From assembly GCA_016187495.1 (NCBI GenBank), contig JACPJP010000031.1:1-38034 (forward strand): a stretch of DNA of 38,034 bases, read 5' to 3'. Made by a program: the position numbers and the translations under genes. The notes beneath the pieces are model-generated. The model searched no databases. It worked only from the letters and a program-made list of their open reading frames with translations, and was not told where the DNA came from. This DNA comes from Candidatus Woesearchaeota archaeon. Lineage in GTDB: Archaea; Nanobdellota; Nanobdellia; Woesearchaeales; GW2011-AR4. This document shows positions 11,252 to 32,887 of this stretch, one piece after another (position 1 is the stretch's first letter; every line of letters starts with the position of its first letter).

Positions 11252-11365
11252 GCGTCGGTGGTCTAATGGCTATGACTCGGGCCTTCCAAGCCCGGTGTCC
11301 GGGTTCGAAGCAGCTTTTTTACTTATACGGAATTAAGAAAGCTGGCGAAATTCCCGGCCGACGCA
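11252..11365 (+). tRNA. tRNA-Gly(TCC) with a 42-nt T-loop intron (11310-11351)
   Basis: Acceptor GCGTCGG/CCGACGC+A; anticodon arm CGGGC-CTTCCAA-GCCCG; T stem CCGGG/CCCGG with loop TTCGAA|T split by the intron; BHB helix TTCG/CGAA with 3-nt bulges AAG and ATT. Confidence 0.88.
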
Positions 11366-32743: not shown

Positions 32744-32887
32744 GCGCCAGTAGCTCAGCTTGGATACTTCAAAATCCTTTTGAAGCCTAAAAGAGCGAAA
32801 GGTTCCTAACCTTTAGGCCGGGAGTTCGAAACAGCTTTTTTGCATAAAGCAAAATCAAAGAAGCTAACGAAAGTCTTCCCTGGCGCG
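32744..32887 (+). tRNA. tRNA-Arg(CCT) with two introns: D-loop (32766-32791, 26 nt) and T-loop (32831-32873, 43 nt)
   Basis: Acceptor GCGCCAG/CTGGCGC+G; D stem GCTC/GAGC, spliced loop AGCTTGGATA; anticodon arm AAAGG-TTCCTAA-CCTTT; T stem GGGAG/CTTCC, spliced loop TTCGAA|T; BHB helix TTCG/CGAA with bulges AAA and AGT. Confidence 0.85.

Follow-up and report, generated by a model that had tools for sequence, protein, structure and literature searches.

The window, by which we mean the whole 38,034-nt stretch of DNA analysed here, belongs to a Woesearchaeota assembly of 778 kb that is 67% complete (G000). Positions 32744-32887 on its plus strand form a complete tRNA-Arg(CCT) gene with two inserts, one in the D loop and one in the T loop (Table 1). 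The acceptor stem GCGCCAG/CTGGCGC has seven Watson-Crick pairs, and every stem of the gene is intact. An earlier note on this DNA had placed the inserts at 32766-32791 and 32831-32873, and sequence reading bears these limits out to the base. ARAGORN, and Rfam at its gathering score, detected zero tRNAs in the window; the Rfam tRNA model matched the central part of the gene only, with 15 bits. Unconstrained folding of the whole 143-nt precursor gave the acceptor, D, and T stems together with both intron hairpins (z = -3.2), and one of 200 shuffles folded as well.

Table 1. Coordinates of the predicted tRNA introns and putative rtcB introns, with the parts of the tRNA-Arg(CCT) gene
Feature	Position	Strand	Basis or remark
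Acceptor stem 5' strand GCGCCAG	window 32744-32750	+	pairs with 32880-32886
D stem 5' strand GCTC	window 32753-32756	+	sequence reading
D-loop 5' exon part AGCTTGGAT (A14 to 20a)	window 32757-32765	+	intron-less relatives have AGCTTGGATA
Predicted D-loop intron, 26 nt, ACTTCAAAATCCTTTTGAAGCCTAAA	window 32766-32791	+	sequence, orthologues, folding
Own helix of D-loop intron	window 32767-32774 with 32778-32785	+	
H helix, D-loop site	window 32760-32763 with 32786-32789 or 32787-32790	+	
A21 and D stem 3' strand GAGC	window 32792-32796	+	sequence reading
Anticodon arm AAAGG-TTCCTAA-CCTTT	window 32798-32814	+	anticodon CCT at 32805-32807
Variable loop AGGCC	window 32815-32819	+	sequence reading
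T stem 5' strand GGGAG and T-loop 5' exon part TTCGAA	window 32820-32830	+	
Predicted T-loop intron at 59/60 (after position 59), 43 nt	window 32831-32873	+	sequence, folding, covariation; one of four similar introns
H helix, T-loop site, TTCG with CGAA	window 32825-32828 with 32868-32871	+	3' bulge AG/T, slash at the cut
T60 and T stem 3' strand CTTCC	window 32874-32879	+	sequence reading
Acceptor stem 3' strand CTGGCGC and discriminator G73	window 32880-32887	+	
tRNA-Gly(TCC), second interrupted tRNA of the window	window 11252-11364	+	
Predicted T-loop intron of tRNA-Gly(TCC), 42 nt	window 11310-11351	+	same family; one of four similar introns
tRNA with similar T-loop intron	starts at G000 C14:1056		one of four similar introns
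tRNA with similar T-loop intron	starts at G000 C14:2312		one of four similar introns
Putative rtcB intron, 32 nt	G000 C1:5307-5338	-	removal restores frame
Putative rtcB intron, 31 nt	G000 C1:5192-5222	-	removal restores frame
rtcB site between DGH and WGYG			G003, G017, G019, G033; G000 with S
rtcB site between HWGY and GFP			G010, G021, G023, G026, G028, G031
rtcB site between GGI and GFD, 12 nt			G019, G021
rtcB site between GFD and INC			G000; TTCG/CGAA, by sequence reading
rtcB site between GFDI and NC			G017; G026 has the same insert, preceding exon partly missing

At both sites, the 3' end of the insert can pair with the preceding exon in a four-base helix, called H here, with the cuts two bases outside it. 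In the T loop this arrangement is exact: the helix TTCG/CGAA and a 3' bulge of exactly 3 nt (AGT) stand as first described. The second three-base bulge does not, because C32832 faces A and the 5' side becomes AAAC opposite AA; in most relatives, 3 nt face 0 or 1 there. In the D loop, both cuts lie 2 nt from the proposed helix TTGG/CCTA with its one mismatch, but RNAfold prefers the mismatch-free UUGG/CUAA, and H therefore forms with either one mismatch or a register shift of one base. Relatives with TTGG/CCAA at this site likewise have their cuts 2 nt off the helix. A shifted cut for the D-loop intron, preferred by an automatic parser, was rejected, as the orthologues decide for 32766-32791. 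Both sites are imperfect, with a C-A mismatch beside the 5' bulge of the T loop and no exon helix directly adjoining the 3' site of the D loop. The strict hBHBh' substrate, proposed earlier for the T-loop site, thus fits neither site, the T-loop site being 4 by 2 nt on its 5' side and the D-loop site having no adjacent exon helix, and both window sites are filed as relaxed BHB.

A search of public genomes with an anticodon-arm pattern returned 56 loci, mostly from Woesearchaeota and Pacearchaeota MAGs. Of these, 48 were parsable archaeal copies, whose intron classes were assigned by reading the printed gaps: 17 are intron-less, 11 have an intron in the D loop only, three at 53/54 only, and nine at 59/60 only, while seven combine the D loop with 53/54 and one combines it with 59/60. 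Two introns outside the anticodon loop of a single tRNA, which the earlier note regarded as uncommon, are therefore common in this clade (8/48). The nearest relative with two introns (L102/L142), from another genus, has a D-loop intron and a T-loop intron, and the two ends of the latter are almost those of the window's T-loop intron. Removing the two inserts from the window gene was expected to yield a normal tRNA, and intron-less orthologues (L133, L126, L107) have exactly the restored loops, AGCTTGGATA and TTCGAAT; L133 reads GCGCCGG TA GCTC AGCTTGGATA GAGC ... GGGGG TTCGAAT CCTCC CCGGCGC. Because intron-less homologues have these D and T loops, chance is excluded.

Several Arg(CCT) loci showed peculiarities of their own. 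In two Woesearchaeota MAGs (L129, L159), the D-loop intron is about 195 nt long and contains large internal inverted repeats. At L144 (JACPMS010000078.1, around 2003-2130), an inverted copy of the 5' half of the gene, with a D-loop intron, lies downstream of the 5' part, and is either a true inverted duplication or an assembly hairpin. The 3' end of the gene, CCTCGCAGGCGCG, recurs some 50-60 nt downstream at L108 (G006) and L109 (G014), as if something had been inserted at the tRNA end. Finally, L132 (PBQF01000006.1), labelled Parcubacteria, has a T-loop intron identical to that of the woesearchaeal L158 and is probably a mislabelled archaeal MAG.

The pairing between exon and intron recurs across T-loop inserts. 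Among 51 inserts gathered from relatives with no condition placed on the intron sequence, 49 are perfectly complementary to T54-T55-C56-R57 over four bases placed exactly six bases ahead of the 3' splice site, a share that may be somewhat inflated, as part of the sample was collected with a model (R1) that contains H. The same complement sought 1-4 bases away from this register occurred in 0 or 1 of the 51. The base opposite position 57 follows the exon: it is T in all 26 inserts with A57, and among the 25 with G57 it is C in 18, T in six (a G-U pair), and unpaired in one. Copies found through the anticodon arm alone show the same H pattern, with two exceptions (L114, L145). In a 12-sequence alignment, pairing within the three helices is 92% versus 72% in shuffles, the covariation is 0.555 versus 0.185, and all slid structures score below the proposed one.

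Interrupted tRNA genes are not confined to Arg(CCT). An intron-aware search combined with a BHB-rule parser resolved 18 tRNA genes in G000, one of them (on C16) poorly parsed, with about 28 introns, and Leu(GAG) is the sole parsed gene that has none. Nearly every tRNA gene found in this genome is interrupted, many of them twice, and Rfam places five tRNAs over its cut-off. As a reference, 0.84 introns per tRNA are reported for Thermoproteales and 71 introns in 46 genes for Pyrobaculum calidifontis (tRNAscan-SE 2.0 paper, PMC8450103). A model search of G000 gave eight T-loop introns, and four of 41-43 nt, in tRNAs of differing identity, resemble each other, with a shared CAGCTTTTTT start and an AAGCT...GAAA end (Table 1). 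The congener G001 has two related T-loop introns of 76 nt in two other tRNAs, and T-loop introns of the window type were found in 61 of 100 relatives and, in a sample of 149 genomes from the phylum, in 52. With just five tRNAs of G000 over the Rfam cut-off, the tRNA sets of Woesearchaeota MAGs may be badly under-counted by standard tools. A second CCT tRNA was sought in the 67%-complete assembly and none was found, the window gene being the only one, and AGG is the most frequent Arg codon of the assembly (2794/5900).

These observations make it very probable that a working tRNA-Arg(CCT) is encoded here and that its gene is interrupted by two archaeal BHB introns, at 20a/21 and 59/60. This had been the central proposal of the earlier note, and it is upheld by the intron-less and singly interrupted orthologues, by the covariation between exon and intron, and by the single CCT tRNA of the assembly. 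One could instead imagine a tRNA pseudogene in decay that has picked up random insertions, with the working gene for Arg(CCT) in the missing third of the genome, as the assembly is only 67% complete and the gene escapes standard tRNA finders. We regard this as very improbable: the stems are all intact, the inserts lie at sites common to orthologues and retain compensatory pairing, the genomes of the family have a single Arg(CCT) each, which is often interrupted, and nearly all other tRNAs of G000 are interrupted as well. Even less credence can be given to inserts of another kind, either self-splicing group I introns or insertions at the DNA level. Woesearchaeal rRNA is known to contain group I introns (PMC6125680), but these require a catalytic core of hundreds of nucleotides, far above the 26 and 43 nt found here; Rfam gives no match at gathering score in the window, and the BHB register is kept in nearly all of the T-loop inserts.

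From the anatomy of the gene, its orthologues, the covariation, the related introns, and the presence of the genes for EndA in the genus and for RtcB in G000 itself, we infer a course of cleavage, ligation, and copying. In the precursor, the 3' ends of the introns would pair with conserved exon bases to form the four-base H helix, TTGG with G18G19 being the exon partner in the D loop and T54-T55-C56-R57 in the T loop, while the rest of each intron would fold into its own hairpin. EndA would then cut on either side of H at a distance of two bases, and RtcB would join the exons into a normal 74-nt tRNA, to which CCA would be added afterwards. Because H uses bases that occur in almost every tRNA, such introns could occupy many tRNA genes and could probably be copied between them. 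The reliance of T-loop introns on near-universal tRNA bases makes the spread of BHB introns testable. A different origin, with the same mechanism, would be that both inserts are ancient and were inherited by Arg(CCT) alone without copying between tRNAs; the Arg(CCT) gene of G009 (L102), from another genus, does have a window-like T-loop intron at the same site, in agreement with vertical inheritance of this gene's intron. We find this doubtful, although it deserves more weight than the two readings above, since very similar introns lie in Val, Ile-type, Gly, and Arg tRNAs of G000 and in other tRNAs of the congener. Resemblance between introns of different tRNAs within a genome, by which transposition was recognized in Thermoproteales, is thus seen in both G000 and G001, and the likeness to that intron transposition (PMC4090602, PMC4033280) also argues for the copying of introns between tRNA genes.

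EndA was not found in the 67%-complete assembly of G000; four of five congeners have it, as do 57 of 58 near-complete relatives. Searches with both EndA Pfam domains gave one gene per genome, besides fragments, duplicates, and sub-threshold hits. The woesearchaeal protein has about 190 aa and comprises complete N and C domains; it conserves Tyr, His, and Lys, as expected for the catalytic triad. Its best structural match is the alpha subunit of Nanoarchaeum equitans (3iey_A), the alpha4 enzyme of M. jannaschii being among the best, and its C-terminal VDDE aligns to the VDAD of the alpha4 enzyme. The EndA of A. pernix has nine additional residues after YG and ahead of the next strand (vekprgadf), including the Lys-Pro-Arg that belongs to the crenarchaeal specificity loop (PMC12397907), and none of the nine is found in the aligned woesearchaeal EndA. 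A heteromeric or epsilon2-like endonuclease had been expected for this genome, and the relatives speak against it, with one EndA gene, no insert corresponding to the crenarchaeal loop, and neither a second subunit nor a fused three-unit EndA found among the near-complete ones.

According to a review (PMC6379350), efficient cleavage of relaxed BHB motifs is limited to (alpha-beta)2 and epsilon2 enzymes, and alpha4 enzymes have a narrow specificity. If they are spliced, the D-loop introns would be an exception to this rule on enzyme types, or they would depend on an unrecognised partner or loop. It is possible that the BHB introns are real and the enzyme is nevertheless heteromeric, the EndA found here acting together with a diverged beta subunit, as in Nanoarchaeum. 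The top rank of 3iey_A among the structural matches and the enzyme types normally required at relaxed sites (PMC6379350, PMC12397907) agree with such a partner, which we still consider unlikely: across the order, the two EndA Pfam domains match one gene per genome, the rest being fragments, duplicates, and noise; the woesearchaeal EndA recognises the N. equitans beta chain at 1e-12, so that a similar beta subunit should have shown; and the VDDE aligned with the alpha4 VDAD is retained. Whether a simple EndA lacking a specificity loop can cut relaxed BHB motifs, which would contradict the accepted view that intron diversity goes with enzyme type, is testable with single proteins and short transcripts.

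The sole ligase gene found in G000 is rtcB (C1:4028-5404, minus strand), and it is interrupted by stops. It appears to carry two short BHB-type introns, as judged from its reading frame: without the two inserts (Table 1) it would encode an uninterrupted RtcB of 487 aa, and the unspliced frame stops after about 77 codons. The rtcB gene of the congener G001 is uninterrupted. Within the family, inserts occupy five neighbouring sites within a strongly conserved stretch of RtcB, DGHWGYGFPIGG...GGIGFDINCG; homologous sites lie in L265/L292, L286-L288, L290, L297, and L300-L303. With cuts two bases outside a four-base helix, the conserved RtcB sequence is regained at all five sites; H has three of four pairs at the site between DGH and WGYG, where pairing is 100% with three compensated pairs (five genomes), and four pairs at the other sites. 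In a 2020 paper, cbf5 and one 5' UTR were the only mRNAs known to have BHB introns (PMC7714728), and a case in rtcB was not found in the open-access literature. BHB introns in archaeal coding sequences thus form a very short list, to which those of rtcB would be added, in this case in the ligase itself; if they are real, the RtcB ligase would depend on its own activity.

A search for further BHB introns in coding genes of G000 gave 402 candidates. No count of mRNA introns is claimed, because these candidates look mostly like gene borders and the top-scoring one is an intact transporter. Other irregularities of rtcB were seen among the relatives. At L304 (G011) and L305 (G034), a long in-frame insertion in this conserved region of rtcB, near model position 50, is probably an intein and lies in an open reading frame of about 1000 aa. 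At L302 (G026), the part VAAFD...SPGG is missing from the exon between the two introns, through a deletion, an assembly error, or the decay of a dying gene. Four genomes that are at least 90% complete (G025, G040, G042, G047) gave no RtcB match, with EndA present in all four; possible reasons are a gap in the assembly, another ligase, or an rtcB gene that is heavily interrupted.

Taken as a whole, we lean slightly towards a DPANN lineage with an expanded economy of BHB introns, in which EndA would be encoded by a single gene without the known devices for broad specificity and the RtcB mRNA would be spliced by RtcB, a self-dependent and possibly regulatory loop. The intron positions and the BHB mechanism are of known kinds, already found in other archaea; what is new is their extent in Woesearchaeota, the simple EndA, and the putative introns in the ligase mRNA.

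The closest parallel is found in Thermoproteales (Pyrobaculum and relatives), which share the positions 20/21, 53/54, and 59/60 (PMC4090602), the BHB logic, the presence of at least two introns per gene, and similar introns across different tRNAs. However, they belong to another phylum than the DPANN Woesearchaeota and use an (alpha-beta)2 enzyme with the crenarchaeal loop, whereas the relatives of G000 have a single gene for an EndA without this loop. ARMAN (Micrarchaeota) are DPANN archaea as well and have relaxed BHB introns outside the anticodon, but their EndA is an epsilon2 fusion of three units, in contrast to the unfused woesearchaeal protein. Nanoarchaeum equitans provides the nearest solved EndA in its alpha subunit, although this chain, at 154 aa, is shorter and its alignment starts only inside the N domain, and neither its beta subunit nor its split tRNA halves were found in the woesearchaeal case. 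Finally, the cbf5 pre-mRNA intron of Crenarchaeota is, like those proposed for rtcB, a BHB intron in a coding sequence. In Woesearchaeota, however, the interrupted gene encodes the very RNA ligase that serves the splicing pathway; up to two introns are seen in one gene, and the family has five sites in all.
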